Shown here: one piece after another, positions 2,995 to 63,135 of the stretch
How positions within the stretch are numbered: position 1 is the first letter of the stretch
How the letters are laid out: the number at the start of each line of letters is the position of its first letter
Assembly: GCF_011299555.1 (NCBI RefSeq)
Contig: NZ_CP049857.1
Location: 744,001 to 808,000 of the forward strand
Reading direction: 5' to 3'
DNA: 64,000 bases
DNA from: Dysgonomonas sp. HDW5A
Lineage (GTDB): Bacteria; Bacteroidota; Bacteroidia; Bacteroidales; Dysgonomonadaceae
Made by a program: the position numbers and the translations under genes
The notes under the pieces: generated by a model
What the model saw: the letters and a program-made list of their open reading frames with translations, nothing else
The model's database searches: none
What the model was told of the DNA's origin: nothing

Positions 2995-3222
2995 ATGGAC
3001 GAGCCATTAAAAGAAAACAATCAATCAACTCAACCTACTGAAGCACTTAAACCACTTATTGACGCCTTTGTTGAGAGTGCAAGAAGGTCTTTGGAGTATG
3101 ATGTAATTAAATATTCGATGAAGCGGTACGAATCTTTTATATTCAAAGGTTACTACAAGAAGAAATTGTACAAAGCCATTCTGGCTCTACGCGAATTTAA
3201 TAAAGATGTAGCAGATAAATAA
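2995..3222 (+). CDS. Small conserved-looking hypothetical protein (75 aa)
   Basis: I do not recognise this protein. It is short, has no signal peptide or membrane segment, begins with a polar Asn/Gln-rich stretch, and is then helical and basic, with several Tyr and Lys residues around KGYYKKKLYKAI. It is a plausible real gene because it fills the only sizeable gap between divergent and convergent neighbours. Its stop codon TAA at 3220-3222 is also the first three bases of a dispersed repeat copy. Confidence 0.55.
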   Translation: MDEPLKENNQSTQPTEALKPLIDAFVESARRSLEYDVIKYSMKRYESFIFKGYYKKKLYKAILALREFNKDVADK

Positions 3223-3246
3223 GGTCTCTGTAATCTTATTTATTGT
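3220..3246 (+). repeat. Dispersed hairpin element, degenerate copy fused to a stop codon
   Basis: TAAGGTCTC begins at the stop codon of the 75-residue gene and is followed by TTATTTATTG, the tail seen in better copies. The right half of the palindrome is eroded (TGTAATCT). Confidence 0.5.
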
Positions 3247-3322
3247 GAGGGATAATGGTGATTGGGATATTTATTATATACAAAAGAATCTATAATAGAA
3301 CTTTTAACGGAAAAACATCGGA

Positions 3323-4027
3323 TCAACCGTTTAATATCTGAATTGTATTGCAGGCGACCAAGGCTGCTGTTTCTGCACGTAAACGACTCTCACCCAAACT
3401 AATCGGCTCAAAGCCATATTTCAATGCTTCCTGTACTTCCTGCTCACTAAAATCGCCTTCTGGCCCTATTAATAGCAGAACATTTCCATTTGCTTTATAG
3501 ATATGTTTCAATAGTTGTTTTTCCTGTGGATAACAATGAGCTATAAATTTCTGTCCATCAAAAGGCTTCTTAATAAAACTAGAAAAAGAAATCATTTCGT
3601 CTAATTGGGGAAGGACAGCTTTTTGAGACTGCTTCATTGCCGAAACAAGTATTTTCTCGATACGTGGCAATTTTATTTCCTTGCGTTCCGAATATCTACA
3701 TAATAAAGGAGTGAAGTGATCAATACCTATTTCTGTTGCTTTTTCGGCAAACCACTCTATCCGGTCTAAATTTTTAGTGGGGGCAAATGCAATCTGTAAA
3801 TAATTACTCCATGGTTTAGGTTCGACTCTTGTTTGTGTAATATTTACGACACAATGTTTTTGATGGGCATCTACAATTTCTGCATCAAAAAAATGTCCTT
3901 TCCCATCAGTTATTAATACCTCATCACCTTCTTTTTTACGCAATACTCGCACACAATGAGCCGACTCGTCTTGTGGTAAGGTATTGTCCTGCTGAATATC
4001 AGGTGCATAAAATATTGTTTTATCCAT
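3323..4027 (-). CDS. rsmE: 16S rRNA (uracil(1498)-N(3))-methyltransferase RsmE
   Basis: The 234-residue product matches RsmE, which methylates N3 of U1498 in helix 44 of 16S rRNA using SAM. The N-terminal PUA-like part carries HCVRVLRKKEGD. The C-terminal SPOUT trefoil-knot signatures are IGPEGDFSEQEV near residue 189 and LGESRLRAETAA near residue 216. Length is normal for the family. It lies downstream of the BFN-domain gene on the same strand with a 55-bp gap, so the two may be co-transcribed. Confidence 0.93.
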   Translation of the reverse strand: MDKTIFYAPDIQQDNTLPQDESAHCVRVLRKKEGDEVLITDGKGHFFDAEIVDAHQKHCVVNITQTRVEPKPWSNYLQIAFAPTKNLDRIEWFAEKATEIGIDHFTPLLCRYSERKEIKLPRIEKILVSAMKQSQKAVLPQLDEMISFSSFIKKPFDGQKFIAHCYPQEKQLLKHIYKANGNVLLLIGPEGDFSEQEVQEALKYGFEPISLGESRLRAETAALVACNTIQILNG

Positions 4028-4035
4028 TGGAGTAA

Positions 4036-4049
4036 AAGTCAGACCTTAA
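4036..4049 (-). repeat. Possible degenerate copy of the dispersed hairpin element
   Basis: On the minus strand this reads TTAAGGTCTGACTT, matching the first nine bases of the element and retaining a partial palindrome. It lies between the BFN and rsmE genes. It could be chance. Confidence 0.3.
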
Positions 4050-4082
4050 TGTTGTATTTTAAAGTAATAACGATCGTAATCC

Positions 4083-4682
4083 TTAATGTTTAAACCGTTT
4101 ATCCATTTCATCACGGAGGACAGATGCTAATTCATAATCTTCGTTATCGATCGCCTCTTGTAGCATCGAATTCAGCTCTTCTTCACTAAGCAAAGCATAG
4201 CTATCCATATATTCTGTAGTATCATTACCTGAGACTATTTCTTTATTATCTATATCATCTTCGCCTTCACTGAATACAATTGCCAGCTTCTGCATTATTT
4301 CTTCGGTAGTATATATCGGAGATTTACTTCTAAGAGCAATACCAATGGCATCAGATGTACGCGATTCTATGGATATTTCTTTTTCCCCTTGCTTGAACAT
4401 CAATTTAGAATAGAAAATTCCATTGTCATACTTATAAATAAGCACTTCCTGAAGAACAATTCCCCATTCAGATATAAAGGAGTAAAATAAATCGTGAGTC
4501 AACGGACGTGGCGGAGAAGTATTTTGCAACTTAAAGGCAATAGACTGAGCTTCAGGCGTCCCGACAACAACCATGAGACGTCTTACACCATCCTCCTCAG
4601 CCAAAACCAAGCCATATGTACCTGATTGTGTTTGGTTAAACGAGAATCCCAAAACCGATAATTTCACCTTTTTGTCTATCAC
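4083..4682 (-). CDS. Bifunctional nuclease (BFN/DUF151) domain protein with UVR motif
   Basis: Residues 1-140 match the BFN/DUF151 family: an early LSVLGFSF, then VVGTPEAQSIAF, then the conserved SRTSDAIGIALR with its SDAI signature. The C-terminus (about 165-199) is a UVR motif, ELNSMLQEAIDNEDYELAS followed by VLRDEMDKR, the short helical hairpin that binds UvrA/UvrB-type partners. This BFN-plus-UVR architecture is common in Bacteroidota and its biological role is not settled. The linker between domains is acidic. It precedes rsmE on the same strand. Confidence 0.88.
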   Translation of the reverse strand: MIDKKVKLSVLGFSFNQTQSGTYGLVLAEEDGVRRLMVVVGTPEAQSIAFKLQNTSPPRPLTHDLFYSFISEWGIVLQEVLIYKYDNGIFYSKLMFKQGEKEISIESRTSDAIGIALRSKSPIYTTEEIMQKLAIVFSEGEDDIDNKEIVSGNDTTEYMDSYALLSEEELNSMLQEAIDNEDYELASVLRDEMDKRFKH

Positions 4683-4808
4683 AATAAATAACCGTTGTAA
4701 AAGTATTCTAATTCAAAAATAGTCATTTTTATGTTATTTAGAGTCCATAAAAGTAAAATTTTAAATAATAATCGTACAAAAAGACAAATTCAAAAAGAAA
4801 TAAAGCCC

Positions 4809-4816
4809 TATCTTTG
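4809..4816 (+). promoter_or_regulatory. Candidate -7 box (TATCTTTG) upstream of the GtrA gene
   Basis: TATCTTTG matches the Bacteroidota TAnnTTTG -7 element and lies 88 bp before the GtrA start. I see no TTG at the expected -33 distance. It also sits beside the right arm of a 7-bp inverted repeat (4740-4746 with 4816-4822). Confidence 0.35.
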
Positions 4817-4903
4817 GACTCTTAAAGAATAATAACAGATATGTTTATAACTATAATGGTTACCACAAAGATAAAACAATCTGATATCTAAGCCTATAAA
4901 TTA

Positions 4904-5332
4904 ATGAAACAGTCTTTCAAAGAATTAGCAAAATACGGAGTAGTAGGTCTTGTCGGGTTAGGTGTGGACTGGGCTGCATTTTTTATTTTTAGAGATGTAT
5001 TTGGTATTAATTATATTGCATCACATATCCTCAGTTCAATACTGGCAATTACCAATAATTTTATTCTCAACAGCTATTTTACATTTAAAGCTACCGACAA
5101 AATCTGGCAAAGAGCTATATCTTTCTTCGGTATTGCCGGTGTAGGATTAGTTATCGGATCGGTATTACTTCCCGTTTTTGTTCAGCTTATAAGTTTCACA
5201 TTAACTCACTTCGACCTATCGTTAGCTCCTAAGATTATCCAAAATTTAGCAAAATTGGCTATTACGGTTATTATCGCTTTTTTACAATTCTTTCTGAACA
5301 AATATTACACGTTCAAGAAAAAAGAGGTATAA
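4904..5332 (+). CDS. GtrA-like family membrane protein
   Basis: The protein has 142 residues and four hydrophobic segments, matching the GtrA/DPMS family: YGVVGLVGLGVDWAAFF, then NFILNSYFTFKA, and the C-terminal FFLNKYYTFKK. GtrA proteins flip or help transfer lipid-linked sugars for surface glycan decoration. The conserved paired N-x-Y-x-TF segments (NSYFTF and NKYYTF) are both present. It lies 54 bp before coaBC on the same strand, although a repeat copy and a -7 box lie in that gap. Confidence 0.85.
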   Translation: MKQSFKELAKYGVVGLVGLGVDWAAFFIFRDVFGINYIASHILSSILAITNNFILNSYFTFKATDKIWQRAISFFGIAGVGLVIGSVLLPVFVQLISFTLTHFDLSLAPKIIQNLAKLAITVIIAFLQFFLNKYYTFKKKEV

Positions 5333-5358
5333 GGTCTCACACCTATTTATTACCTTTG
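5330..5358 (+). repeat. Dispersed hairpin element fused to the GtrA stop codon; carries a -7-like box
   Basis: The copy begins at the TAA of the GtrA gene. The core AGGTCTCACACCT is palindromic apart from one pair and is followed by ATTTATTACCTTTG. The last eight bases, TACCTTTG (5351-5358), match the Bacteroidota -7 box, so this copy may also provide the coaBC promoter. Confidence 0.65.
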
Positions 5359-5386
5359 TAAATCATACAATCTAGATAATAAAGAA

Positions 5387-6589
5387 ATGACACTCAAAGG
5401 TAAACATATAGTATTAGGTATAACAGGCAGTATTGCTGCATATAAAGCAGCATCTTTAGCTCGTTTATTCGTTAAAGAAGGTGCCGAAGTACAGATAGTG
5501 ATTACTCCTTCAGGAAAAGAATTTATTACTCCTGTAACATTATCTGCTTTAACAGGAAAGCCTGTAGTAAGTGACTTTTTCGGTGCCAATGACGGTACAT
5601 GGCATAGTCACGTAGACCTTGGTCTGTGGGCTGACTTTATGATTATAGCACCTGCTACAGCTGCCACAATGGGTAAACTGGCAAACGGAATTGCCGATAA
5701 CATGCTAGTTACAACCTATATGTCGATGAAAGCGCCTGTATTTATTGCTCCGGCAATGGATCTTGATATGTTTGCACATCCATCTACAACACGCAATATA
5801 TCATTGCTTCAATCATACGGTAATCATATAATAGAACCGGCATCCGGAGAACTAGCCAGTCACCTGATAGGTAAAGGGCGTATGGAGGAGCCTGAGAATA
5901 TTGTTGCTTACATCAAAGAATATTTTGAGAAACAGGAATCTCTTTCAAAAAAAAAAATCCTGATAACGGCTGGACCGACGTATGAAAAACTAGATCCTGT
6001 TCGTTTTATTGGAAATTACTCTTCTGGAAAAATGGGTTTTGCCTTGGCTGAAGAATGTGCGGAAAGAGGTGCAGAAGTGGTGCTTATTGCCGGTCCTGTA
6101 TCCTTAAAAACCACACACTCTAGTATCAGGAGAATTGATGTAGAATCGGCTGAACAAATGTATCAGGCTGCAACAACCGAATTTACGGATAGTGATGCAG
6201 CTATACTGTGTGCTGCCGTAGCAGATTACCGTCCAAAAGAGCAAGCGGATAATAAAATAAAAAGAAAAGAAGGAATTAACCTGACTTTAGAATTGATTCC
6301 CAATAAAGATATCGCCGCATCGTTGGGAAAGGCTAAAAAAGAAGGACAAACTTTGATTGGCTTTGCTTTAGAGACAAATAATGAAGAACAAAACGCACTC
6401 TATAAAATCACAAAGAAAAATTTAGATTATATTGTTCTCAATTCTCTGAATGATAACGGAGCCGGATTCCAGCACGACACCAATAAAATAGCCATTCTCA
6501 ATAAAAATGGACTTCGTACAAATTTTGAATTAAAGAATAAAAAAGAAGTCGCTAAAGATATTATTAATTATACCTTGGGGCGCGATTAA
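5387..6589 (+). CDS. coaBC: Bifunctional phosphopantothenoylcysteine decarboxylase/phosphopantothenate-cysteine ligase
   Basis: This fused enzyme performs two steps of coenzyme A synthesis: CTP-dependent joining of cysteine to 4'-phosphopantothenate (CoaB), then FMN-dependent decarboxylation (CoaC). The CoaC half (1-180) shows GITGSIAAYKA, the catalytic His segment SHVDLGLWAD, IIAPATAATMGKLANG and APAMDLDMF. The CoaB half (from about 185) shows LITAGPTYEKLDPVRFI, NYSSGKMG, AAVADYRP and the late NKDI motif. Length (400) is normal. Odd point: the substrate-flap segment reads ASGELASHLIGKGRM, with no cysteine where the E. coli enzyme has its conserved one. Confidence 0.95.
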   Translation: MTLKGKHIVLGITGSIAAYKAASLARLFVKEGAEVQIVITPSGKEFITPVTLSALTGKPVVSDFFGANDGTWHSHVDLGLWADFMIIAPATAATMGKLANGIADNMLVTTYMSMKAPVFIAPAMDLDMFAHPSTTRNISLLQSYGNHIIEPASGELASHLIGKGRMEEPENIVAYIKEYFEKQESLSKKKILITAGPTYEKLDPVRFIGNYSSGKMGFALAEECAERGAEVVLIAGPVSLKTTHSSIRRIDVESAEQMYQAATTEFTDSDAAILCAAVADYRPKEQADNKIKRKEGINLTLELIPNKDIAASLGKAKKEGQTLIGFALETNNEEQNALYKITKKNLDYIVLNSLNDNGAGFQHDTNKIAILNKNGLRTNFELKNKKEVAKDIINYTLGRD

Positions 6590-6613
6590 GTTCGCAGAAC
6601 TATGTATTGCTTT
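6586..6613 (+). repeat. Dispersed hairpin element (GTTC/GAAC type) fused to the coaBC stop codon
   Basis: It starts at the TAA of coaBC and has the core AGTTCGCAGAACT, a 5-bp stem with a GCA loop, followed by ATGTATTGCTTT. It differs from the GGTC/GACC copies by a compensatory change within the stem. Confidence 0.7.
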
Positions 6614-6744
6614 TTACTTACCTAAACCACAAGCAGGTCTGACATCTTGATAAGATTGAATATCATTCTTTTATCTATCAATAAAAGAGAGGAAAGACAA
6701 AAAAAGGTAACAGTAAAAAAAGAAAATAAAAAACTACTCAAAAA

Positions 6745-6862
6745 GTGTCACTTTTGTAACCTTTGTAACCTTTTGAATAATTATCAACTGATTACAAGAT
6801 GATTACGAAAACAACAAAAGTTACAAAAGTAATATCAGTTTGTCACCTTTTTGACAACTTTT
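6745..6862 (+). repeat. Cluster of GTAAC/GTTAC repeats and a near-perfect inverted repeat before the M23 gene
   Basis: This 306-bp gene-free stretch (6590-6895) holds two direct GTAACCTTT-like units at 6756-6774 and an inverted repeat: ACTTTTGTAACCTTTG at 6750-6765 pairs with CAAAAGTTACAAAAGT at 6815-6830 with one mismatch. Flanking GTGTCAC and TTGTCACC words form a wider pair. It could be an operator array or a long-loop structure. Confidence 0.5.
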
Positions 6863-6895
6863 TGTACTCGATGAACTCTTGAAAATAAACTTACA

Positions 6896-8593
6896 ATGAA
6901 CAAAATTATCGTTATTATATCTCTATTATTATCGTTTCATACTTCCGCACAAGAATACCGAAGTCCTCTGGATATACCGCTATTATTAAGTGCTAATTTT
7001 GGAGAGCTTCGCAATAACCATTTTCATTCGGGAATTGATATAAAGACGCAAGGTGTAGAAGGAAAGCCTGTTTACAGTATAGCTGACGGCTATATTTCTC
7101 GGATAGGGGTTTCACCCAGTGGATATGGACTCGTTTTATACATAGATCACCCTAACGGACAAACTTCGGTTTACGGGCATTTGAGCTCTTATAATGTAAG
7201 GATATCCGAATATGTAAAACAAGAACAATATAAACAGGAAAGCTTTAGGATTGATGTAAAACTTTCTCCTTATCAAATCCCAGTAAAAAAAGGAGACTTA
7301 GTCGCCTATACAGGTAATACGGGCGGATCAGGTGGTCCACATTTGCATTTCGAAATAAGGGAAACTAAGACTGAGAAAGCATTAGACCCTTTAGTGTATT
7401 ACAAAAAAATTATTGCAGATAATAAATCGCCTGAAGTTAAAGGAATTGCAGCCTACCCTGTTCCCGGAAGAGGTGTTATTAACGGAACAATTCTTCCCTT
7501 ACACCAATCTGTAACACAATTAAAAGCCGGAGGCTATTCTCCCCTGAAACAATCTATTGAAGCATGGGGATTAATAGGACTTGGAATAAAAGCATACGAT
7601 AGAATGGATGCTACATCTAATATCTATGGAGTACGGGTTGTAAGCTTATCAGTAGACAATAAAGAAGTTTTCAGATCCGAAGTGGCCGGTTTTCCTTTTG
7701 ATCAAAGCCGTATGATAAATACGTTTACTGAATTTGCAGACTGGAGACTCAATAAGTCATTTTATATGCAGTCGTTTATTGAACCGGGAAACAAATTGCC
7801 ATTTTATTCATCTATCAACAGTGGCTATATCAATATAAATGAGGAACGCCCTTATCAAATCTCTTATGAGTTAGAAGATCTTTACGGGAACAAGTCTGTC
7901 TATGATTTTACCGTTATTGGTAAAAAACAGAATATCATAACGCCCTCGGCTTGTAATCAAGTTCTAATTTGGGATAAGGATAACAAGTATAATACCGATC
8001 AGTTTACGTTATCGATTCCCAAGGGAAATTTATACAACGATGTATGTTTTACACTGTCTCAAGCATCCTCTACAGAATATTATTCAGATATTTATTCAGT
8101 AAATAAAACACCCGTGCCGCTTGATAAATCGGGAGAGGTAAGTATCAAACTATCATCCGATCCTTTGAGTAATAAGAAACAGTACGGTGTAGTCCAACTA
8201 ACAAACAACAGGGCATCGTGGATAGGAGGCTCTTACAAAAATGGTTCTATTATTGCCAAAATACGCGAGTTAGGGATACGCTTGGCAGTTTCGGCTGACA
8301 CTGAAGCACCCAAAATCACCCGCATAGAAACATCGGGAAAAGGGAAAAGAAGAATAGTTGTGCCCAAAGATGAGATAAGAATACGTATGAGCGACAATCT
8401 CAGTGGAATAGCAACATTCAAAGGAACTATAGATGGCAAGTTTGCCCTATTCACACATGATATGAAATCTTCGATATATACTTATAAGTTTGATCCTGCC
8501 CGATTTAAAAAAGGGATCACTCACAAAATTGTATTTACAGCCACCGACGGTTGCGGAAATACAGCTCAATATACAGGAGAATTTTTCTATTAA
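6896..8593 (+). CDS. Exported M23 (LytM-type) metallopeptidase
   Basis: A signal peptide ending near SFHTSAQ is followed by an N-terminal LytM/M23 domain (about 25-175). The zinc-site pieces are HFHSGIDIK (first His and Asp) and HLHFEIRE (H-x-H). YGHLSSYN and TGNTGGSGGPHLHF are typical of the fold. M23 enzymes cleave peptidoglycan cross-bridges. The remaining 390 residues are beta-rich with no domain I recognise; the last part (ADTEAPKITRIE, then SDNLSGIATFKGTIDGK) looks like an Ig-like module. The N-terminal rather than C-terminal catalytic domain is usual for this Bacteroidota group. Confidence 0.9.
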   Translation: MNKIIVIISLLLSFHTSAQEYRSPLDIPLLLSANFGELRNNHFHSGIDIKTQGVEGKPVYSIADGYISRIGVSPSGYGLVLYIDHPNGQTSVYGHLSSYNVRISEYVKQEQYKQESFRIDVKLSPYQIPVKKGDLVAYTGNTGGSGGPHLHFEIRETKTEKALDPLVYYKKIIADNKSPEVKGIAAYPVPGRGVINGTILPLHQSVTQLKAGGYSPLKQSIEAWGLIGLGIKAYDRMDATSNIYGVRVVSLSVDNKEVFRSEVAGFPFDQSRMINTFTEFADWRLNKSFYMQSFIEPGNKLPFYSSINSGYININEERPYQISYELEDLYGNKSVYDFTVIGKKQNIITPSACNQVLIWDKDNKYNTDQFTLSIPKGNLYNDVCFTLSQASSTEYYSDIYSVNKTPVPLDKSGEVSIKLSSDPLSNKKQYGVVQLTNNRASWIGGSYKNGSIIAKIRELGIRLAVSADTEAPKITRIETSGKGKRRIVVPKDEIRIRMSDNLSGIATFKGTIDGKFALFTHDMKSSIYTYKFDPARFKKGITHKIVFTATDGCGNTAQYTGEFFY

Positions 8594-8616
8594 GTTCGCA
8601 TAGCTATCTATTTTAC
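8590..8616 (+). repeat. Degenerate dispersed element fused to the M23 gene stop codon
   Basis: TTAAGTTCGCATAGCTATCTATTTTACTT begins at the TAA stop and matches the GTTC/GAAC copy after coaBC in outline. The right arm is changed (ATAGCT), so the stem is mostly lost. Confidence 0.45.
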
Positions 8617-8629
8617 TTAATATGCAATT

Positions 8630-9247
8630 ATGAAGTTTGAGAAGACAATACGAAGATTGACCATTTTAAATATACTTTTTGTTTCGATTGTTTTCTTTGC
8701 TCAAGCACAGGAGACAACAGAACTGAAAGAAGTAAAAAAGAATGACAAAATGACTTCCGGTCAGGCGATTATTTACGGAAGCTTTATACAACGCTTATCG
8801 ACTAACAGTATCGGTTTTCCTCAGGATATACGGATAGTTAATATAACGACCACCGAGGTATTTTCGTTCAGAGTAAAGCCAACCTTCAAGATGACAAAAG
8901 AAAATACCTTTTGTTACTTCCTCGAACCCGGCACTTATATGATATTGGATTATTGGTGGACAGATAGTAAATGGTATGGAGGCAATGGCATGATTGAGCC
9001 CGTTTACAAGGGAATCGATGCAACTGATAGTTTAAGAGAGAAAATAGACAGCAACAGAATCAGTCAACGTGACCTGAAACGTTTTGCTTTTACAATAGAA
9101 AGTAATACCCTTAATTATGTAGGAACATGGCACTTCGATACAGGTATGGTTTATTTTACCAACGATAAAGCTCAGTTAGACGAAAAACTAAAAAAGAAAT
9201 ATAAGAAACTCGACTTTCACAAAGCTGCAACAATTATTCCCGAATAA
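8630..9247 (+). CDS. Exported hypothetical protein (205 aa)
   Basis: I do not recognise the family. A hydrophobic N-terminal segment (residues 12-27) ending in AQAQ looks like a signal peptide, so the protein is probably periplasmic. The middle is beta-rich with aromatic stretches (MILDYWWTDSKWYGG, and LNYVGTWHF), and the end is highly basic (KLKKKYKKLDFHKAA). It follows the M23 gene by 36 bp on the same strand and may be translated from the same message. It converges on the LysR gene with only 2 bp between stop codons. Confidence 0.7.
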   Translation: MKFEKTIRRLTILNILFVSIVFFAQAQETTELKEVKKNDKMTSGQAIIYGSFIQRLSTNSIGFPQDIRIVNITTTEVFSFRVKPTFKMTKENTFCYFLEPGTYMILDYWWTDSKWYGGNGMIEPVYKGIDATDSLREKIDSNRISQRDLKRFAFTIESNTLNYVGTWHFDTGMVYFTNDKAQLDEKLKKKYKKLDFHKAATIIPE

Positions 9248-9249
9248 AA

Positions 9250-10164
9250 TTATCTATCTCGAAAACTCTGCAAACCTAAATTCACAAAGTTTCTAATTTC
9301 ATCTAATAGTTTAGGCTCTATTTTTGTTTTATCATGAGCAATATACAACTCATTCGTTGCAGGTTGGAAGCCTTTCCACAAGACCCTGACAGTACCGTTG
9401 TCCAAAGCCCTGCCGGCAATAAGGTCAGACGATACGGCTAAGCCATTACTATTTGCTACTGCTTCTAAAATCGCATTATTATCAGGTATCGCAGCCTGTA
9501 GTTTAAGCAAAGGACGCTTTTTGAAGTTCTCCCTCCAGAATCTTCTCACTAATACCAGATTACTATTGTATGCATACCATTGTTGAGCCTGTAACCATTT
9601 TTCGATTTGTTCTAAGTCAGCAGATTCAACTAAGCTATCAAATTCAGACGAATCGAATTCAGGACTACATACAATATTAAAAGATTCTGTCAATAGAGGT
9701 TCATAAGTCAGAAATTCATGTGTAGCATTACGCTGTGTTATTATAGCTACATCTAACTCTTTACTGACCAGTTTATCAATCAATTCGGAAGCTAATCCAT
9801 ATTCTACAATCAGGTAAGACTTCAGTTGTGATACGTTCTTAGCCAGATAGATACTGAAGAATTCGGCAGGACTGCCTAATTTTATAGTGGTATTCTTATT
9901 TAGGATCGTTTTTTTAAACTCAGCCTCAACCCTTTCCAGATTATCGATTGATTCTACAACCTGTGTGTAAAGCTGCTTGGCATAATCCGTAGGAACCATT
10001 TTTCGGGGTAGCCGTATAAACAAAGCATGACCAATATAACTTTCGAGTGCAGCCAACTGAACACTCACATTGGGCTGAGAAAGAAGTAACTCCTGAGCCG
10101 CTTTAGTTAATGTGCCATTCTGATAGATTGCCTTAAAAGTTCTGTACCATTCGAGATTTACCAT
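9250..10164 (-). CDS. LysR-family transcriptional regulator
   Basis: At 304 residues it has the LysR layout. The N-terminal winged helix-turn-helix runs over residues 1-65, with WYRTFKAIYQNGTLTKAAQ and LLLSQPNVSVQLAALE as the recognition part. It is followed by a linker helix and a periplasmic-binding-like effector domain starting near residue 92 (TTIKLGSPAEF). The start codon lies inside the last codons of the threonine aldolase gene (7-bp overlap), so translation is probably coupled. Regulators are more often divergent from their targets, so co-transcription with a metabolic enzyme is notable; it may sense an amino acid. Confidence 0.88.
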   Translation of the reverse strand: MVNLEWYRTFKAIYQNGTLTKAAQELLLSQPNVSVQLAALESYIGHALFIRLPRKMVPTDYAKQLYTQVVESIDNLERVEAEFKKTILNKNTTIKLGSPAEFFSIYLAKNVSQLKSYLIVEYGLASELIDKLVSKELDVAIITQRNATHEFLTYEPLLTESFNIVCSPEFDSSEFDSLVESADLEQIEKWLQAQQWYAYNSNLVLVRRFWRENFKKRPLLKLQAAIPDNNAILEAVANSNGLAVSSDLIAGRALDNGTVRVLWKGFQPATNELYIAHDKTKIEPKLLDEIRNFVNLGLQSFRDR

Positions 10165-11386: not shown

Positions 11387-11412
11387 CATCAGAATAATAA
11401 ACAAAAACAATT

Positions 11413-12066: not shown

Positions 12067-12098
12067 GAGAGAGTTTTTTGACAGTGAATTTTTTCCTG

Positions 12099-19330: not shown

Positions 19331-19457
19331 CTTATTTAGTAAGTAATTTCAACTATTTAATAATACATTATTAAAAGCATGATTATCTATTGTTATTGAA
19401 CAGCTCTGCAAATCTAATTATAGAACTGATTTATAAAACCTTTGTCAATAAAAAGAA

Positions 19458-23019: not shown

Positions 23020-23060
23020 TTAAGGTCTAAGGTCTTTTTATTACTTTAGTAAGCATAACC
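23020..23060 (+). repeat. Degenerate long copy of the dispersed hairpin element
   Basis: It aligns with the long copy at 25040-25095: TTAAGGTCT, a scrambled right arm, TTTTTATTACTTTAGTAAGCATAA. The second hairpin is reduced to TACT/AGTA. It begins 20 bp after the AMP-binding gene. Confidence 0.6.
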
Positions 23061-23384
23061 TTAGCAACTTGTTATAATTAATATATGTAATTAAATACTT
23101 TTATTAACTTACTATCAGACAAGAAAGCCTGAGTTAGGAGAAACCTGGCAAGTAACAAACACTAAGATTTTATTGTTGCGATCGATAAATGAGTTGTTTT
23201 GCGAACAACACCATAATTAATTCATCCTCAACATGAGTGGTATTTTAAATTACTAACCTATGAATGATTACGATCTGCAAACCAATAAAACAGACTTATA
23301 TTGATTTTATAAGAAAACAATATATGACACAAAACAAACACAATACTATTTTTCACTTTATTCACTCAAGGACTAATCAATATT
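23061..23384. other. Gene-free AT-rich stretch
   Basis: I see one small hairpin here (23193-23209, six base pairs GTTGTT/AACAAC) and an isolated 14-codon frame, but no convincing promoter, RNA gene or larger reading frame. Confidence 0.4.
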
Positions 23385-24988: not shown

Positions 24989-25039
24989 TTTTTTATTTAT
25001 TTAAGTAGCACTAAATATATATTACTACATTTTACAACT

Positions 25040-25095
25040 ATAACTGCCTCTCGCTATTATGCTTACCAAAGCAACAAATAGGTCTGAGACCTTAA
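25040..25095 (-). repeat. Long copy of the dispersed hairpin element
   Basis: On the minus strand this begins TTAAGGTCTCAGACCT, followed by ATTTGTTGCTTTGGTAAGCA and a further stretch ending GGCAGTTAT. It is colinear over about 55 bp with the copy at 40654-40709. The perfect 13-bp core palindrome is followed by a second stem (TGCTT/AAGCA). Confidence 0.85.
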
Positions 25096-25931: not shown

Positions 25932-25960
25932 TTAAGGCCTCAGACCCATTTGTTTTTAAT
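25932..25960 (+). repeat. Dispersed hairpin element, slightly eroded
   Basis: TTAAGGCCTCAGACCC followed by ATTTGTTTTTAAT. One stem pair is lost relative to the consensus. It lies 13 bp upstream of the nicotinamidase-like gene start, in the opposite orientation. Confidence 0.6.
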
Positions 25961-36736: not shown

Positions 36737-36783
36737 TACTTTTGTATATATATTTAAATAAAAAACGGATAGGTCTCTGACCT
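36737..36783 (+). promoter_or_regulatory. Candidate promoter and hairpin element before the small TPR gene
   Basis: TACTTTTG at 36737-36744 matches the -7 box, 48 bp upstream of the start codon. The leader it would produce contains a copy of the dispersed hairpin element, ending 9 bp before the ATG. Confidence 0.45.
36771..36783 (+). repeat. Dispersed hairpin element in the leader of the small TPR gene
   Basis: AGGTCTCTGACCT, a perfect 5-bp stem with a TCT loop. Unlike most copies it lies at a 5' end rather than a 3' end, where it could influence translation. Confidence 0.65.
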
Positions 36784-36791
36784 TTTAATAT

Positions 36792-37583
36792 ATGGGTAAC
36801 AACGGATTAAATAAAATATTAGGATTTTTAGGATTAGATAAATCCGAAAATAGCCAATCTTATGAGCAAGAGAACTACTCATCTCTTTACTCTGAAAAAT
36901 TAAGAGATGCTTTATCTCAACCACCTGGTGCTGAGAAAGCCGGTGCTCTCAGAGAATTAATCGGAGAGATCGAGAATGAAAATTTATCTTTAGAAGAAGA
37001 ATCTCCGGCTCAGAAAGTCGACAAATATAGTAGTGCCGGAGTAGCATATTCTGAATTACAGGAGTATGAAAAGGCAATACAATATCACAACAAAGCTATC
37101 GAAATAGCTAACAGCATTCCAGCTCTTTACTACAACAGAGCAAATACCTACAATAAACTTGGTGAATATCAAAAAGCTATAATCGACTACAAAAAGGCAA
37201 TTACGCTGGATCCCGACAATGCTGATTATCATTGTAATTTAGGATATACCTACGACGATTTGGGTATGTACGAGGAAGCTGTTGATAATTACAATAAAGC
37301 AATCGAAATAAATCCGTATAATACAATCAACTTAAGTTGCAGAGCCGCAGCCTATGTCAATATTAAAGAATTTGAAAAGGCAATTAACGACTATAATCAA
37401 GCTATAGAGCTTGACCCTTTCGATCCGCAATTGTTTTTTAACAGAGGACTAGCTCTAGCCAATAGTGGACAAATAAATGATGCTATCAAAGATTTTGAAG
37501 AGTGTCTTGCGATTGACCCGCAGAATCACTTTGGACAGAAAGGTCTGGCAGTATTAGCTCTCGAAAAATTACGTCCCATTTGA
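36792..37583 (+). CDS. Tetratricopeptide repeat protein (263 aa)
   Basis: After about 80 polar residues it has five consecutive TPRs with the usual pattern (AIQYHNKAIEIANSIPALYY, then NRANTYNKLGEYQKAIIDYK, and so on to the end). No signal peptide. The motif style (Y-N-R-A, D-P-D-N-A) is the same as in the 980-residue TPR protein, so the two may be related, but it lacks the membrane and coiled-coil parts. Likely a cytosolic scaffold; partner unknown. Confidence 0.85.
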   Translation: MGNNGLNKILGFLGLDKSENSQSYEQENYSSLYSEKLRDALSQPPGAEKAGALRELIGEIENENLSLEEESPAQKVDKYSSAGVAYSELQEYEKAIQYHNKAIEIANSIPALYYNRANTYNKLGEYQKAIIDYKKAITLDPDNADYHCNLGYTYDDLGMYEEAVDNYNKAIEINPYNTINLSCRAAAYVNIKEFEKAINDYNQAIELDPFDPQLFFNRGLALANSGQINDAIKDFEECLAIDPQNHFGQKGLAVLALEKLRPI

Positions 37584-40653: not shown

Positions 40654-40709
40654 TTAAGTTCGCAGAACTATTTATTGCTTTGGCAAGCAAAACAGCGATA
40701 GGCTGTTAT
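40654..40709 (+). repeat. Long copy of the dispersed hairpin element (GTTC/GAAC type)
   Basis: Core AGTTCGCAGAACT, then ATTTATTGCTTTGG, then CAAGCAAAACAGC and GGCTGTTATG. Three stems are possible: the core, TTGCTT/AAGCAA and AACAG/CTGTT. It is colinear with the inverted copy at 25040-25095, with a compensatory change in the first stem. Confidence 0.85.
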
Positions 40710-40740
40710 GCCTTTAAAATGTGTCATTAAATATTTCCTT

Positions 40741-41277
40741 TTACTTAAATGAGTTGAATATAGGAGAAATCATTGCATTATAAGTGTCTTTTTCTTCTTT
40801 TGGATATTTAAGAATAGCTGTAACTAAAGCTCCTTTCGTGAAAATTGTCTTTTGATAATAGAGCATGTCTCCATCCAGACCCGATATAACATAATAATTG
40901 GGACTCAATGCACTATGAGCAATCTGACGTCCTTTTTTATCGGCTATGTCTTCTTCATAAGCTGCATTAAAAGCCAGAGAGGCACCACTCTTATCTGTAC
41001 GCTTATCGCTATAAATACGCAACTCTGCTTTTCCTTCGGCAGCCTTGAAAATTTGCTCTTCACTATTTGCTGAGGCATCCTGAGGTAAAAGTATATCTTT
41101 CGGATAGCTTATACTGTATCCCAAAAGTTCATTGGTATAAGTACCTGCTGCTACTTTGTTACTATCGGCAACCTGTTCAACAGATTCACTCTGTGCATTC
41201 TCTTTATTTGAATTTCCACCGCAACTAACAACCATTACGGCTAGTGCTAAGATAATTGTACTTTTAATAAGTTTCAT
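40741..41277 (-). CDS. Lipoprotein of unknown function (178 aa)
   Basis: The lipobox VMVVSC at residues 15-20 makes it a lipoprotein, followed by a polar Asn/Ser/Glu linker. The mature domain (YSISYPKDILLP to the final ISPIFNSF) has the layout of PsbP/DUF1795-type folds, similar in style to the repeated domain at 17561-20111, but without its DIPF or DYEKFRP motifs. No function can be named. Confidence 0.72.
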   Translation of the reverse strand: MKLIKSTIILALAVMVVSCGGNSNKENAQSESVEQVADSNKVAAGTYTNELLGYSISYPKDILLPQDASANSEEQIFKAAEGKAELRIYSDKRTDKSGASLAFNAAYEEDIADKKGRQIAHSALSPNYYVISGLDGDMLYYQKTIFTKGALVTAILKYPKEEKDTYNAMISPIFNSFK

Positions 41278-41288: not shown

Positions 41289-41321
41289 TAAAGGTCTCAG
41301 ACCTGTTTATTGATTAAGCAA
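41289..41321 (+). repeat. Dispersed hairpin element, intact core
   Basis: Perfect AGGTCTCAGACCT (41292-41304) followed by GTTTATTGATTAAGCAA. It lies in the divergent gap between the lipoprotein and GH88 genes. Confidence 0.75.
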
Positions 41322-56400: not shown

Positions 56401-57951
56401 ATTGGGCGATAGTGCTACGGGTTTTACCAGTTTTATAAACAAAGCTCCCGACTTGGTTCCCTGTTGTACTTTATTGGGAATCTCACTGGCAAACTCCCCT
56501 ACTCTATATGCCTGACCATTCATAGTATACTCGAAGGCTACTGCCAAAACTTCATCATCGGCCAAGGCTGATTTTAGGGATACGAACCCGAGTTGTGTAT
56601 TCACCGTATATTCATTGGCATCCAATAACCTGGCACTTTCCAGCTTCTCATAATCCTGTCCGCTTACCAAGCCTGCCTGATTAGTCAGAACCTCATTTAC
56701 ATCACTTATATTACGAGCTTTGGCATATGTACTGTTTACAACGCTATATAAATTATTTGCCGTGTTACTGGGGAAAATAGACGAACCTTGGCTAGTCCAT
56801 TTATTCTTATTCTTTATATTATCACCATGCTCTCCCATATCCACAAATCCGACTATGTTACGAGCATTATCAAAATTACCTCGTTTATTAGTCACCCATA
56901 GTTCTATACGGGTTATCAGTATAGGTGAATTTACAAAGGGAAGCTTACTCATTCCGTCATCAAACTTATCCCTAAAGTATCGGGTTAAGAAAAAGTGCTG
57001 ATTTTCATCGTATTTAGATGCATCAAACTGATAATTTGTGGTTTGTACGCCACCTTTCGATCCAACTGATTGTGTTTCTGATTCCTGTTGAGAAATTACC
57101 GTATTTACTCTTAATTTTCCGAACTGTAAATCGGCACGAATACCGAATAAGGATGCACCGCCACTAATAAGCGAATTGGTAGTATTCAGAGCTACGTTTC
57201 CTGCTCCGAGGTATTTTATTATTTCATCTTCGTCACCTTCATAGGCTAGCTTCAAGCGTTTTGAATCAAAGTCGAAGGTGGCTTCTGTGTCATAATTTAG
57301 CCCAAAATTGACTTTATCCCCAACCGAAGCGTTGACATTCATTTGTATTTTCTGTTGAAAATCGAACATCGTACGGCTCCTGTTTTTGAGAGCTAAAGTC
57401 GGATTTTCAGTAGTTGTATGCCTTATACCTGCCGAAACTTCGGTATACCCCTGAGTTTTAAGCTGAACTCCTCCGGGACCAAAAATACGTTCCAAAGATC
57501 CGAGGTTAACTTTAATATCTTTCAGTGAGAATTCTTCCTTTTTATCTTTTTGATCGAATGCTTCGGAATTTTTTGCCCTAAAATATTGTGACATGGATTC
57601 TTTAAGTGAGTAATCCATATACTGCTGAGGATTCAGCGTAAAAGGTGTAACCCACTCACCATCGTCAATCTTTGTACGGAATAAATAGATATTATGTTTT
57701 ACGTCAAACTCTACTTCTGTTTTCACGTTCGACGGATCACGAAGATCAACAGGTGTTTTCTGTATAAGGTCTTCATAATTTGTGATCTGAGTTTTCCGTA
57801 CCGGATAAATAGCTCCTGTATCCTGAGGTAAAGCTACTTCTGCATTTATATCCGGCAGTATATAGTCTATCCGTCCGGTAGTGCCGGAGAACAAACTTAT
57901 ACCACAAATAAAGAGTGATAAGAGAATAAAATATTTAAAATTCTTCTTCAA
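50479..57951 (-). CDS. sprA: SprA/Sov, outer-membrane translocon of the type IX secretion system
   Basis: This 2490-residue protein is the giant T9SS translocon SprA (Sov in P. gingivalis), a 36-strand outer-membrane barrel through which cargo with C-terminal sorting signals passes. The start is a signal peptide (FILLSLFICGISLFSG). The early region has AAKE-free SprA landmarks such as TVISQQESETQSVGSKGG and YFRDKFDDGMSKLPFVNSPI, and the middle has FTSIRFMRMFLTGFKQTTYLRF and VWVNELRLTDYDDENGWAAQ. The C-terminus ends with short amphipathic strands (FGISLRFTLTE). Length is typical. It follows ruvA by 35 bp on the same strand. No other T9SS core gene is in the window. Confidence 0.95.
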   Translation of the reverse strand: MKKNFKYFILLSLFICGISLFSGTTGRIDYILPDINAEVALPQDTGAIYPVRKTQITNYEDLIQKTPVDLRDPSNVKTEVEFDVKHNIYLFRTKIDDGEWVTPFTLNPQQYMDYSLKESMSQYFRAKNSEAFDQKDKKEEFSLKDIKVNLGSLERIFGPGGVQLKTQGYTEVSAGIRHTTTENPTLALKNRSRTMFDFQQKIQMNVNASVGDKVNFGLNYDTEATFDFDSKRLKLAYEGDEDEIIKYLGAGNVALNTTNSLISGGASLFGIRADLQFGKLRVNTVISQQESETQSVGSKGGVQTTNYQFDASKYDENQHFFLTRYFRDKFDDGMSKLPFVNSPILITRIELWVTNKRGNFDNARNIVGFVDMGEHGDNIKNKNKWTSQGSSIFPSNTANNLYSVVNSTYAKARNISDVNEVLTNQAGLVSGQDYEKLESARLLDANEYTVNTQLGFVSLKSALADDEVLAVAFEYTMNGQAYRVGEFASEIPNKVQQGTKSGALFIKLVKPVALSPNSYAWDLMMKNVYRLGDRQIQKDKFRLNITYLSDTTGTYINYLPAGAIQNKLLLRVMNLDRLDAQENPHPDGIFDFLPGFTILPETGRIIFPVVEPFGSHLRKQIANDAIADQFVYQQLYDSTQFVAIQIADRNKFRISGSYRASASNSVINLNAMNVARGSVVVTANGIPLVENADYTVDYSAGTVTILNQALIDAGTPINVTLENQALFSMQRKTLLGMNLSYEFTKDFTVGATVMHMYERPLTMKVGIGEEAIKNTIWGLNTSYRAQSQWLTNLIDKLPFLTATAPSQIALNAEFAHMIGGHYQNQYLHGYSYLDDFESAKSTVSLNNPYAWKLSSTPSMFPESKLNDNIEYGNNRAHLSWYTIDNLFTRKNSSLRPDYINADSLSNHFVREIQQSEIYPNRDILANEPPLISTLNLTYYPQERGMYNLDATNITPEGTLLNPDKRWGGITRKIDNRDFESTNIEYIQFWLMDPFVYNDQAKYKNDGGDLYFNLGDISEDILKDGRKFYENGLPLDDDPSAYTYNVWGKVPTRQSTVYAFDLSGGAASIAKQDVGLNGLSRTEEAQFETYAKYLATFRSKISGATEAAMLQDPFSPLNDLSGDKYHHYRGADYDRERLGIIARYKYFNGTEGNSAEGDSGANGFSMAATIHPDVEDLDQDNTMNENERYYQYKVHLQPDQMEVGRNFISDKRTVEVELRNGQKGNITWYQFQVPIRTPQKEVVGNIKDFTSIRFMRMFLTGFKQTTYLRFGTLDLVRGDWRVYTQTLQDGINQGLGSLNIFAVNIEENSTKTPVNYVLPPGVTRILDPSQPQVRQENEQALALQVLKLEPEDARAVFKPTSYDLRRYKRLQMFTHAEELIDGPPIADGEMTVFLRLGSDYRSNYYEYEIPLSITPAGNYNTNNPTDQRIVWPTNNMFDFPLEILKNLKLKRNKEKRQVGSKVSYTERYSDYDPEKVANKITVIGNPSLSEVNVIMIGIRNNSRTVKSGEVWVNELRLTDYDDENGWAAQGNLNIALSDVGTISFSGRKETSGFGSIDQNLMERRLDDFYSYDIATTVDLGRFLPEKAKVNLPLYYSYSNQTTTPKYDPLDQDVTLKESLSIVETRAEKDSIKSLAQDRTTTKNLSLTNMKVNIQSKTPMPYDPANFTFGYAYSQTEVKNPTTVYDQTKNYKASLNYSYSPSMKTWAPFKSMQSKAPLAKYPKSLGINYLPSNISFNSYMTRFYTETLVRDLDGYILGGGSTNENLFLTWSQNFYWDRDFSINWDLLRNLKISIQTGTRAEIEEPFLQVNKKLNRDDYELWRDDVLRSIRNLGDPLAYRQTARVTYALPLNNIPFLDWISSSANYDSGYTWDRGAVIDTTVEVGNTITNNLTLTFNNRLDLTSLYNRSPFLKKVNDKFDINRRRQNAQRERRPSENRKKRFEQEVRLNTDSATIVKHGMNTKNIQLVARQGTKLFKVKYKRVDENTIRITTKDTAQIKINIVEKGDQEETTLYKIAQYTARGLMSVRSVSFNYSTREETAIGGFRPGIGDVFGQKQTEYGMTPGVGFAFGFDGGEQYIDKSLRNDWLVLNEMSISPAVYNSISKFDFEAQIEPIRGLKVRLTALHEKNDRTTFQYDTQANVTKIFGGSFTMSTIAIGSSFESSNIGNNYKSASFSKFLKNRDIIAKRLTDKYSGIYYPNVGFIAEAGLGNKLFDPANGVVNPNSPDVLIPAFLSAYTSGGSANNIALTAFPKLLSMLPNWRVNYDGLTTLPWFKDKFKNFILSHAYTAQYSVGSYSSFLTWIEAGDNIGFIKSLDDVAMPLPTSAYDISSVNLIEQFNPLLGAEGTMTNNLTLKARYNYSRMLNLSITSFQIVETLQKDFVLGAGYRINEFNKLIGLPIKNDRGFNNDLNVTADISRRTNHALIRRIDEGFTDATSGSTILTLKLSAEYTLSRALLLRAFYDRVVNSPLISSSSYPTSNTNFGISLRFTLTE

Positions 57952-57986: not shown

Positions 57987-58568
57987 TCACAGTATTTTCA
58001 ATGCAGCCTTTATTACTTGTTCTATTGTACTGTCTGGTTTGTCTTTCATCAGTTTCGACACTACTTTTTGAGAAGGAGCCTGATTAAAACCAAGCATCAC
58101 CAGAGCGGCTATAGCCTCATTAGCAGTTTCGCTATTTATGGTGATATCGCCTTTCTCGTGATTACCCGATACTTTTATCTTATCTTTCAGGTCAACTATA
58201 ACACGCTGTGCAGTTTTCAACCCAATACCTTTGACTGTTTTCAACATATCGGCATTACCTGATGATATTACAACCTCAAGTTCACTTGGACTCATCGAAG
58301 ACAGAATCATACGGGCAGTGCTCGCTCCGATACCCGAAACGCTGATCAAATGCATGAACAATTCTCTTTCTTGCTTGTTTATAAAACCAAATAATTGATG
58401 TGCATCTTCACGAATTGACTCGTAAATAAATAATTTTGCATTCGCCTTATTCTCCAATGCCGAATAGGTGTTCAGAGAGATACTGATAAAGTATCCAATT
58501 CCATTAACATCCAGAGTTGCTGAAGCAGGTGTTAACTCTGCTATGTCTCCTTTTATATAATCAATCAT
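57987..58568 (-). CDS. ruvA: Holliday junction DNA helicase RuvA
   Basis: The 193-residue protein has the N-terminal OB fold ([21 protein letters not shown]), two helix-hairpin-helix motifs ([18 protein letters not shown] and [19 protein letters not shown]) and the C-terminal RuvB-contacting domain ([11 protein letters not shown]). RuvA recognises four-way junctions and loads RuvB for branch migration. It lies 35 bp upstream of sprA on the same strand, a neighbourhood I recall in other Bacteroidota. ruvB is not in the window. Confidence 0.95.
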
Positions 58569-58601: not shown

Positions 58602-58634
58602 AATAGGTCTCAGACCTCCTTGTTTATTTAACTA
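58602..58634 (+). repeat. Dispersed hairpin element, intact core
   Basis: A perfect AGGTCTCAGACCT core (58605-58617) with CCTTGTTTATTTAA following, 36 bp upstream of ruvA, in the divergent gap. Confidence 0.72.
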
Positions 58635-58831
58635 GTAATATAACAACAATAGAGAGTTATGATTTTAAACGTATCATTACCTATTTTCTGTAATTTATTT
58701 AATCCATTAACATAGTCTAAATGCCGATTATCCTCTACTGCTTCAAGGCAGTCGGGACTATCCCTAGTTATGCAAAAGTAACTTTATTATTGTTTATTTT
58801 CAAGTATCGCCTTAGTTAATACAGACATTAA

Positions 58832-61072: not shown

Positions 61073-61093
61073 ATATTGGCAATTTCATATACG

Positions 61094-61131
61094 AAAAAAG
61101 GAGAATAGCTATCAAACTATTCTCCTTTTTT
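61094..61131. terminator. Bidirectional terminator after dcp
   Basis: A perfect 15-bp stem (61094-61108 with 61117-61131), an 8-nt loop, an A6 tract at the left and T6 at the right. It serves both convergent genes. Confidence 0.9.
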
Positions 61132-61146
61132 ATGTTTCATTTGTTT

Positions 61147-63078
61147 CTATTTCAATCGGTACTTCTTTTCCTTATACAGATCGTCTGCTGCAATAACATG
61201 CCCTAATGCATCTTTTGCCAGTTCTGTATCTAATTCAACAGGAACAAGAGTTGTATCATTTTTAACCTCAAATTGCAGAGGCTGCTTATTGGGTTGCATA
61301 ATAACCACTTGATTTTCTACTCTGAAAGCATTAATATCATGGAATTGCATGATTGCACGCCCCGGAATACTATCGGCAAGTTGAAGTATATTACGTCCCG
61401 GCATAGGAGTTTCGACTTTCATTCCGACAAAGGATAATAAAGTAGGTGCGATATCTATCTGACTTGATAACTTATCATATTTTACACCTTGTGGAACATT
61501 CGGTCCAACTATCAGAGCCGGAATACGGAATTTATTGATAGGAACTAAATTCTTTCCATAGGTGCGAGTATTATGGTCGGCAATTACAACGAATATGGTA
61601 TTCTTGAAATAATCTTCTTTTTTTGCCAGTTCAAAGAATTTACCTATCGAGAAATCGGCGTATTTGATCGCATTATGAACCGTATTTTTGGGTTGTTCAT
61701 AGAGTTCTATGCGTCCGTCGGGAAATTCAAACGGATCATGATTTGAACTCGAAAACATAAATGAAAAGAATGGCTTATCGCCCATGCTCTTGAAATATTC
61801 GTTTGCTTTTGTCACCAAGTCTTCATCCGAATATCCCCATGTGCCTTTGAAAGCATAGGTGTTTCCATCTTTATCAAATACCGACTCATCGATAATATTA
61901 TCAAAACCATTCCCATTAAAGAATGATGCCATATTATCAAAATTAGCCATACCTCCATAGATAAAACTGGTATTATATCCGGCTTGTTTCAACAAAGCAC
62001 CAAGTGTGAAAAAATCGGTTTGAGCTCCACTCAATTTGACTACACTTTCTGATGGTGAGGGCAAAAATCCGGTAGCCACAGCCTCTATCCCTCGTACACT
62101 TCGAGTACCGGTACTATAAAGCCGACTAAATAACAAACCTTCTTTCGCCAGTTTATCCAGCTCGGGAGTAAGGGGCATTCCTCCTAAAGAACCTACAAAC
62201 TCAGCTCCCAGACTTTCCTGTAAAAATATCACCAGATTATAAGGTCTGCTCATTAAGGTATCAGGCATCTGTATATGCGTCAACGGTAAATTGGGATCTG
62301 TGAAATTATCCTCCGAAACATTCATATATTTCTTCACACGAAGAATAGCTTCTTCTGGGTCCATTTTTCCGTACATTTTACTGGCGTCCACTTCATTTTT
62401 CAGCCCATAAGCTGCATAAAAGAGTGTATATGTAGAATTTAATGCCAGACAATTGGTCAGCTGATCATTCGAAAACATTGCACTACTCGGGTTTACCGGT
62501 CTTTTGCTGGTTAGACTACCTCTGGCTCCCCAAAATAGAAAGAAACCTAGCAGAGGGAACAAAAGTAATCTGTACTTATAATCTGTCGGGCGAACCTGAA
62601 ATAGTTTCGCTCCTTTTTTGAAGCCGAAATAAAGGGCTACTCCCGATAAAGCGAGAACAACAATAACAGTCCAGACACGTCCTTTAAGTAACATATTGGC
62701 TACCTCTTTGGGATATATCAGATATTCGAGGAATAATTTATTGGGACGTGTATCATATTGATCTATAAAGTCGGGGCTTACGATCTCCATAAAGAAGATA
62801 AGGAACAGAAATGTAATAAAATAAATGGTCAGAAACCGGCTGGTATACTTTGCTACTTTATCGGGTAAAAAGGATAAAAGCACGGCAGGGATAAATGATA
62901 GATAGCATATAAGAATCAAATCAATTCTCAATCCAATAGGAAATATTTCCCAATAGTTATCTACTGATATTACACGGTCTTTATACATCATGAATAGCAC
63001 AAAACGGCTGATTGTGGTAATCAGCAGAGCTATAAATGCAAAGTTTAGCAGAGGTTTTAAGAATTGTAGTTTCTTCAT
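61147..63078 (-). CDS. LTA-synthase-like membrane sulfatase/phosphoglycerol transferase
   Basis: Five membrane segments occupy residues 1-190 (FAFIALLITTISRFVLFMM, LILICYLSFIPAVLLSF, FLTIYFITFLFLIFFM, VIVVLALSGVALYFGF, LLFPLLGFFLFWGARG). A periplasmic alkaline-phosphatase-like domain follows: LVIFLQESLGAEFVGSLGG with the metal Glu, STGTRSVRGIEAVATGF with the likely Thr nucleophile, and VIADHNTRTYGKN with Asp/His ligands. Relatives make or transfer phosphoglycerol or phosphoethanolamine on envelope polymers. Gram-negative members' substrates are mostly unknown. Confidence 0.88.
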   Translation of the reverse strand: MKKLQFLKPLLNFAFIALLITTISRFVLFMMYKDRVISVDNYWEIFPIGLRIDLILICYLSFIPAVLLSFLPDKVAKYTSRFLTIYFITFLFLIFFMEIVSPDFIDQYDTRPNKLFLEYLIYPKEVANMLLKGRVWTVIVVLALSGVALYFGFKKGAKLFQVRPTDYKYRLLLFPLLGFFLFWGARGSLTSKRPVNPSSAMFSNDQLTNCLALNSTYTLFYAAYGLKNEVDASKMYGKMDPEEAILRVKKYMNVSEDNFTDPNLPLTHIQMPDTLMSRPYNLVIFLQESLGAEFVGSLGGMPLTPELDKLAKEGLLFSRLYSTGTRSVRGIEAVATGFLPSPSESVVKLSGAQTDFFTLGALLKQAGYNTSFIYGGMANFDNMASFFNGNGFDNIIDESVFDKDGNTYAFKGTWGYSDEDLVTKANEYFKSMGDKPFFSFMFSSSNHDPFEFPDGRIELYEQPKNTVHNAIKYADFSIGKFFELAKKEDYFKNTIFVVIADHNTRTYGKNLVPINKFRIPALIVGPNVPQGVKYDKLSSQIDIAPTLLSFVGMKVETPMPGRNILQLADSIPGRAIMQFHDINAFRVENQVVIMQPNKQPLQFEVKNDTTLVPVELDTELAKDALGHVIAADDLYKEKKYRLK

Positions 63079-63113
63079 ATTATTAGTGCATTATTTATTC
63101 TTTATTTTTAGTG

Positions 63114-63135
63114 TCAGGTCTCAGACCTTATTATT
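63114..63135 (+). repeat. Dispersed hairpin element, intact core
   Basis: Perfect AGGTCTCAGACCT (63116-63128) followed by TATTATTT, 36 bp upstream of the LTA-synthase-like gene and downstream of asd. Confidence 0.72.

Follow-up and report, generated by a model that had tools for sequence, protein, structure and literature searches.

What is the short hairpin that recurs between the genes of Dysgonomonas sp. HDW5A, a member of a genus of host-associated bacteria? Our study concerns a 64,000-nucleotide (nt) stretch of this genome (the window; the whole genome, of 4,298,355 bases, is G000 below), in which a sequence-only reading had reported about fifteen intergenic copies of a hairpin core and had proposed that they act as RNA or as a two-fold protein site. 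We conclude that the hairpin is very probably one end of a mobile but non-autonomous repeat, some 93 bases long, whose insertion at a TA leaves it flanked by TA at either end, an option that the reading had not listed. The copies, estimated at several hundred in G000, reshape gene boundaries, give stop codons to genes and put hairpins near start codons.

A dispersed repeat in excess of chance

Within the window the core AGGTCTCAGACCT has 31 matches at up to three mismatches, against 9.6 +/- 3.3 in 100 shuffles, none of which reaches 31 (palindromic sites were scored on both strands). The second core is marginal by itself (22 versus 15.1, equalled in 5 of 100 shuffles), and both of its exact window copies are members of the same element family. 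On the forward strand of the whole genome the core occurs 212 times when at most one mismatch is allowed, and the reversed pattern once. Our main search used a 95-column profile of the element at E<0.5, applied to 100 evenly spaced 20-kb stretches of G000 together with the window (about 48% of the genome); it finds 209 unique places in this sample and none in the 100 stretches reversed. Both ends are present at 99 of these places, the 5' end only at 94, the 3' end only at 13 and neither at 3; the excess of 5'-only copies is partly a matter of detection, since the model draws more of its information from the 5' end. Certain copies remain 96-98% alike.

The count of about fifteen window copies was a fair one, as we find 14 places, 10 of them at E<0.5 and 4 weaker (8590, 25932, 36771 and 3220). 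Six of the seven copies that had been singled out lie where they were placed (6586, 36771, 40654, 41289, 58602 and 63114); the seventh, given as 25040 on the minus strand, has its core at 25080-25092 and the full element at 25001-25095. No named family had been recognised for the core, and the window has no Rfam match at the gathering score. The core followed by a TATTTATT tail is present as described, but it is merely the 5' end of a longer unit.

Anatomy of the element

The commonest element length is 93 bases, and the family as a whole is dispersed, shorter than 200 bp and chiefly intergenic. The 5' end starts with TA-AG and continues with a hairpin, AG[G/T/C]TC-NNN-GA[C/A/G]CT, whose chief forms are AG[G/T]TC-loop-GA[C/A]CT, and a tail, TTTATT. 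A second hairpin (GCTT-TGGC-AAGC), a third (AACA..TGTT) and an AT-rich part follow, and the 3' end reads ATTAAATA-N10-ACT-TA. Full-length copies were aligned from 69 of 70 references (L076:13916-13998 was omitted, L numbers being loci, and any copy bearing a large insert had already been excluded). In this alignment the first three positions are T in 61, A in 62 and A in 68 copies and the last four are C in 65, T in 65, T in 59 and A in 60; beyond the TA on either side conservation drops abruptly to near background. The ends thus read TAAG...CTTA, with TAA present at both. They are asymmetric, and their likeness as inverted repeats is clear over TAAG/CTTA only: 10.6 of 24 terminal bases are identical, against 6.9 +/- 2.1 when shuffled, and the first four are identical in 55 of 106 copies.

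Occupied and empty sites

The evidence for movement comes from a comparison with related genomes, of which G001, G004 and G005 belong to the same genus. In one case an element in G001 interrupts an older element that is kept whole in G000 and G005; TA is repeated around the inserted copy, and taking it out of the sequence leaves a single TA. Further pairs with TA duplication are L238:4432 versus L075, and C1:168507 and C1:171264 of G001 versus L105; in the C1:168507 pair the empty G000 site has TG in place of TA.

Many sites also differ in occupancy. Fifty-nine elements of relatives have both a 5' end and flanks that map in the G000 sample (pairs with flank identity of at least 99% were skipped, with the aim of dropping the own-genome loci L136 and L150). 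At 36 of the corresponding G000 sites there is no core, at 20 there is a core in the same orientation, and at 3 a core on the opposite strand only; among the 20 shared sites, numbers 0, 2, 12 and 16 are doubtful, through nested insertion, a weak match or a strand made ambiguous by the palindrome. The reverse test took G000 elements whose flanks map in 400 kb of G001, and by our own reading 7 of 10 are shared, 1 is absent, 1 is unclear and 1 is an inverted copy.

The spread of the element is concentrated in the genus. A 33-base 5' pattern (up to three mismatches, both strands) gives 107, 240, 87, 30, 16 and 0 matches in the six Dysgonomonas genomes compared; the genome with no match is 62% complete, and reversed controls give 0 in every genome. 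Outside the genus the element is rare and patchy: 2 of 35 genomes of other genera carry the 33-base pattern, with 8 and 3 matches, and across the order a 29-base pattern at up to two mismatches is found in 3 of 295 genomes, G000 among them. Named carriers include D. alginatilytica, D. capnocytophagoides and Dysgonomonas HGC4, 520, BGC7, ZJ279 and UBA7710, as well as a metagenome-assembled genome labelled Prevotella. A variant, TAAGGTCTTCGACCT, occurs at C42, C297, C353 and C385 of G183, which is one of the 3 carriers among the 295 and comes from another family of the order.

Covariation in the stem and its meaning

The sequence-only reading had noted a compensatory change from G-C to T-A in the 5' stem, and this change exists. 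Among 191 cores the third of the five stem pairs, alone in covarying clearly, is G-C in 120, T-A in 36, C-G in 3 and A-T in 3. Whether compensated variants are in excess depends on where one looks: at the third pair 42 compensated double changes stand against 29 others (7 uncompensated double and 22 single), whereas with the five pairs taken together 48 cells have compensated changes, 12 have double non-Watson-Crick changes and 134 have one-sided changes (G-T wobbles included). An A at position 16 accompanies the T-A form in 30 of 32 such cores, which makes this form look like one subfamily. Stem compensation therefore separates subfamilies, and individual copies mutate mostly without it. The inference from base pairing to a function of each copy, as RNA or as a two-fold site, is not supported in the form in which it was put; the pattern fits selection on the hairpin in the source elements. 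Compensated stems between subfamilies of a repeat, in general, need not imply function at each copy.

A preset structure for the hairpins has 79.2% of its cells paired, compared with 23-39% after sliding of one side, and a covariation score of 0.201 versus 0.148 when shuffled, a value reached in 0 of 500 shuffles; the counts of paired cells, of double-changed cells and of types of pair also beat all 500. A terminal stem, TAAG/CTTA with TATTTA/TAAATA, was rejected as the main fold (65.5% paired against 37-43% slid, with its covariation reached in 9 of 500 shuffles). The broken pairs at two stem positions are C-A in 15 and 15 cores and T-G in 6 and 6, counts taken over related and not independent copies; the C-A breaks in the 191 cores are wobble pairs on the opposite strand.

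These stems bear directly on the proposal that the hairpin is a functional RNA (a terminator, a stabiliser of mRNA or a switch in the untranslated region) under selection at each site. The predominance of uncompensated changes among copies of one genome speaks against it, as do the 36 coreless sites among 59. Against a terminator in particular, a simple scan of window positions 1-20000 flags none of the copies there, and 5'-only copies show no excess downstream of genes on their own strand, where gene terminators would be expected: 29 lie on the strand of the neighbouring gene and 47 on the opposite strand, near the random share. On the other side, many copies are located at stop codons, and some old copies keep more of the 5' end than of the 3' end. 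Of 33 elements of relatives with both ends and mapped flanks, G000 retains the 5' 24-mer for 9 and the 3' 24-mer for 3, with 6 cases of 5' without 3' and none of the reverse; independent insertion nearby could partly mimic this retention, given that all copies resemble one another at the 5' end. The core at window position 41291 is common to G000, G005 and G001 at the same place and in the same orientation, with the start codon of the gene 40741-41277 (minus strand) 13 nt away, in a gap whose remainder has mostly diverged. An element at 309122, likewise common to three species, is identical between G000 and G005 at 84 of 93 positions with flanks about 81% identical, and an orthologous pair at G000 3276570 shows, by eye, a compensated outer pair. 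Taken together, we regard selection on RNA at each site as unlikely. It is possible that certain old shared copies, which keep the 5' hairpin and lose the remainder, came into later use in untranslated regions.

Position relative to genes

Placement was scored against the longest open reading frames (ORFs) with an ATG start of at least 90 amino acids, not a curated annotation, with 22 cores excluded because they are at the edge of a stretch. Although about 83% of the sequence is coding, no more than 5 of 193 cores fall within predicted ORFs. Among 75 copies that follow a gene on the same strand, the TAA of the element coincides exactly with its stop codon in 21; among 91 copies behind a gene on the opposite strand, 45 are 10-30 nt from its start codon, compared with about 8% of random intergenic places. 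The overlap with stop codons is mirrored at the 3' end in 4 of 30 full-length copies facing a gene on the opposite strand, and the two flank lengths of full-length copies are not clearly different (p=0.10). With TAA at both ends, copies thus frequently provide the gene beside them with its stop codon. Our own reading of this placement is insertion at TA in AT-rich gene edges together with removal of harmful insertions, either end being able to restore a stop.

If a DNA-binding regulator used the palindrome as a two-fold site and co-option had spread it, this would account for a near-perfect palindrome and for the number of copies that precede start codons by 10-30 nt. Against this, the conserved unit spans about 93 bases, its ends are fixed and TA is duplicated; the copies at stop codons are equally striking, and the change from G-C to T-A goes as a subfamily. 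We consider a binding site extremely unlikely.

A model for the spread of the element, and what weighs against it

We propose a model in which the element inserts at TA, as the occupied and empty sites show, and the TA is duplicated on both sides. The hairpins would be kept between subfamilies most likely because the moving enzyme, which would act in trans, recognises them. Copies would persist between genes, where their placement is seen directly, and insertion at a last codon would restore the stop. Once inserted, copies would mutate largely freely, and old copies shared between species would tend to keep the 5' hairpin, possibly as part of a neighbour's untranslated region.

Several results weigh against a mobile repeat of this kind. 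For the preset structure, one of five measures, how many pairs show a double change, was reached in 36 of 500 shuffles; the helices come from a structure that we named ourselves, and the shuffle control overstates significance for related copies. RNAalifold gave no consensus structure on the 69-copy alignment, and six single-sequence folds are only slightly better than shuffles (z -0.5 to -2.7). The clean TA sites number just four and were judged by eye, and the 7 of 10 sites shared with G001 imply that the age of many sites exceeds what recent spread would produce by itself. Pairing of 5' and 3' ends at larger distances yielded no transposase-carrying copy in the G000 sample or in 112 loci, mostly from relatives with some from G000. 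Among the six genus genomes, DDE_3 (IS630 type) was found in none, DDE_Tnp_1 in one, IS110 DEDD in four, not including G000 or G005, and Y1 (IS200/RAYT) in three, not including G004 or G005, which have 87 and 30 element matches. None of these four transposase families tracks the element across the genus.

The search for the moving enzyme

Candidates for autonomous copies at 2.2 and 2.7 kb were dropped, as they enclose ordinary-looking genes. The idea of a miniature inverted-repeat transposable element of the IS630 type was likewise abandoned, given the lack of a matching DDE_3 transposase in the six genus genomes. At shorter distances the sample has 74 end pairs spaced 40-70 nt apart and 9 spaced 90-95 nt apart, and at least five of these nine enclose, by eye, a repeat of the GTAG type.

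A repeat of the REP type, with a RAYT (Y1 transposase) as its mover, would likewise be hairpin-bearing, asymmetric, intergenic and present in hundreds of copies, and G000 has one RAYT-like gene. The copies in G000 also favour the lagging strand (128 to 81, p=0.0014, a share of 61%, or 64% by another count), but this bias is a hint only, because it is confined to one half of the G000 genome (73:32 versus 55:49), and it is weak in G001 (48:36, n=84, p=0.23). The element lacks a GTAG or CGTC tag, ends in TAAG...CTTA and duplicates TA, and G004 and G005 have no Y1 match. The RAYT locus of G000 (3.2 kb) is not flanked by intact copies, with a degraded copy only (E=0.018), and its gene contains letters of a different, GTAG-type repeat. 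A RAYT-driven origin is therefore very unlikely in our judgement. Derivatives of IS200/IS605 such as PATE are marked by hairpin ends and by single-strand insertion with a strand bias; in our element the hairpins are present, the strand bias is partial, and the enzyme was not found among the families searched.

The other repeat, GTAGGGG...CCCCTAC, lies inside several copies of the element (G000 3529796 on the minus strand; 3398818, 1469119 and 1633581 on the plus strand), and letters similar to it occur in frame in the RAYT-like ORF at 1258-1797 of L177, the sole one in the genome.

We also consider, as a doubtful but specific extension of the mobile-repeat model, a hairpin-guided and possibly single-strand, TA-specific reaction by a trans-acting enzyme outside the families tested, with some copies now serving as hairpins of untranslated regions, in a genome whose sampled half is nearly free of multi-copy insertion sequences. 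Multi-copy proteins are indeed rare: at identity of at least 85%, the 1493 ORFs of the sample include two pairs, one of which we take to be IstB-like, and three sets of three short ORFs, which probably lie on rRNA operons. Copies that are 96-98% alike with no mover recognised make this enzyme a concrete target.

Relation to known repeats

We recognised no published description of this family in the literature searched, where subscription journals were mostly beyond reach. The kind is known, namely small mobile repeats with a TA target such as RUP, ERIC and Correia; the family itself appears to be new. RUP of Streptococcus pneumoniae, a geneless repeat of 107 bp with about a hundred intergenic copies and a TA duplication, resembles the Dysgonomonas element in its intergenic position, insertion at TA with duplication, lack of a gene of its own and association with stop codons (PMC2229807, PMC3049150). 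It differs in its 9-bp terminal inverted repeat, which is like that of IS630-Spn1 (PMC2229807, PMC3049150); the Dysgonomonas element has essentially TAAG/CTTA, and no IS630-type transposase was found among the six Dysgonomonas genomes. BOX, of the same species, shares conserved ends around a variable middle and nested insertion but is described as having tandem boxB-like modules, which are not seen here; SPRITE of S. pneumoniae lies near gene ends and is terminator-like, with an 18-bp duplex by description in contrast to our 5-bp stem (PMC3049150, PMC10969869). Correia/NEMIS and ERIC are, like our element, small, intergenic and foldable, with TA at both ends and target duplication, but are described with longer inverted repeats (24 bp and 7 bp) and from other hosts (PMC2229807). 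REP sequences are also hairpin repeats, in subfamilies with alternative complementary stem bases; they measure 20-40 bp and carry a GTAG or CGTC tag, in contrast to about 93 bases and TA ends (PMC3733652).

Copies in the window

All 14 places in the window are listed in Table 1; a second, shorter model, of 36 columns of the 5' part, was used for degenerate copies.

Table 1. Complete, partial and degenerate copies of the element in the window.
Positions	Strand	Copy and context	Support
3220..3245	+	degenerate 5' part	read by eye
5330..5368	+	5' part; TAA is stop codon of ORF 4904-5332	E=0.072; 36-column model 2e-4
6587..6613	+	5' part; TAA is stop codon of coaBC ORF 5387-6589	E=0.0087
6594..6648	-	second 5' part, inverted relative to 6587 copy	E=0.016
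8590..8617	+	degenerate 5' part; TAA is stop codon of ORF 6896-8593	repeat family D8; below profile threshold
19340..19401	-	3' part only	E=0.31
23020..23112	+	full-length element	profile E=3.4e-6
25001..25095	-	full-length element, G-C stem subfamily	profile E=2.9e-18
25932..25954	+	degenerate 5' part	36-column model E=0.075
36771..36796	+	degenerate 5' hairpin just upstream of ORF 36792	36-column model E=2.1; core with 1 mismatch
40654..40748	+	best full-length element, T-A stem subfamily	profile E=4.9e-24; folded
41291..41321	+	5' hairpin and tail only	E=0.0029
58605..58692	+	nearly full-length element upstream of ruvA (57987-58568, minus)	profile E=4.1e-6
63113..63205	+	full-length element	profile E=3.9e-5

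The site at 25001-25095 looks empty at least in G001, because the unaligned gap there measures 29 nt against 133 here; in G005 it is 68 against 132, both comparisons being of coordinates only. The elements at 58605 and 63113 are missing at the orthologous places in both G001 and G005. Between flanks orthologous to those of the 3220 copy G001 has a 5' part, and by our own reading decayed counterparts of the 5330 copy occur in G001, G005 and a further genome, G003. The identities of RuvA and CoaBC come from NCBIfam. At 6587-6648 two 5' parts overlap in inverted orientation.

Other features of the window include long, near-perfect intergenic inverted repeats at 1305-1358, 17501-17553, 23801-23840 and 36020-36071, which are probably ordinary terminators; ORFs at 32318-37583 with internal repeats at 102-base spacing, which presumably are TPR-like; and an ORF of 2490 amino acids on the minus strand at 50479-57951.

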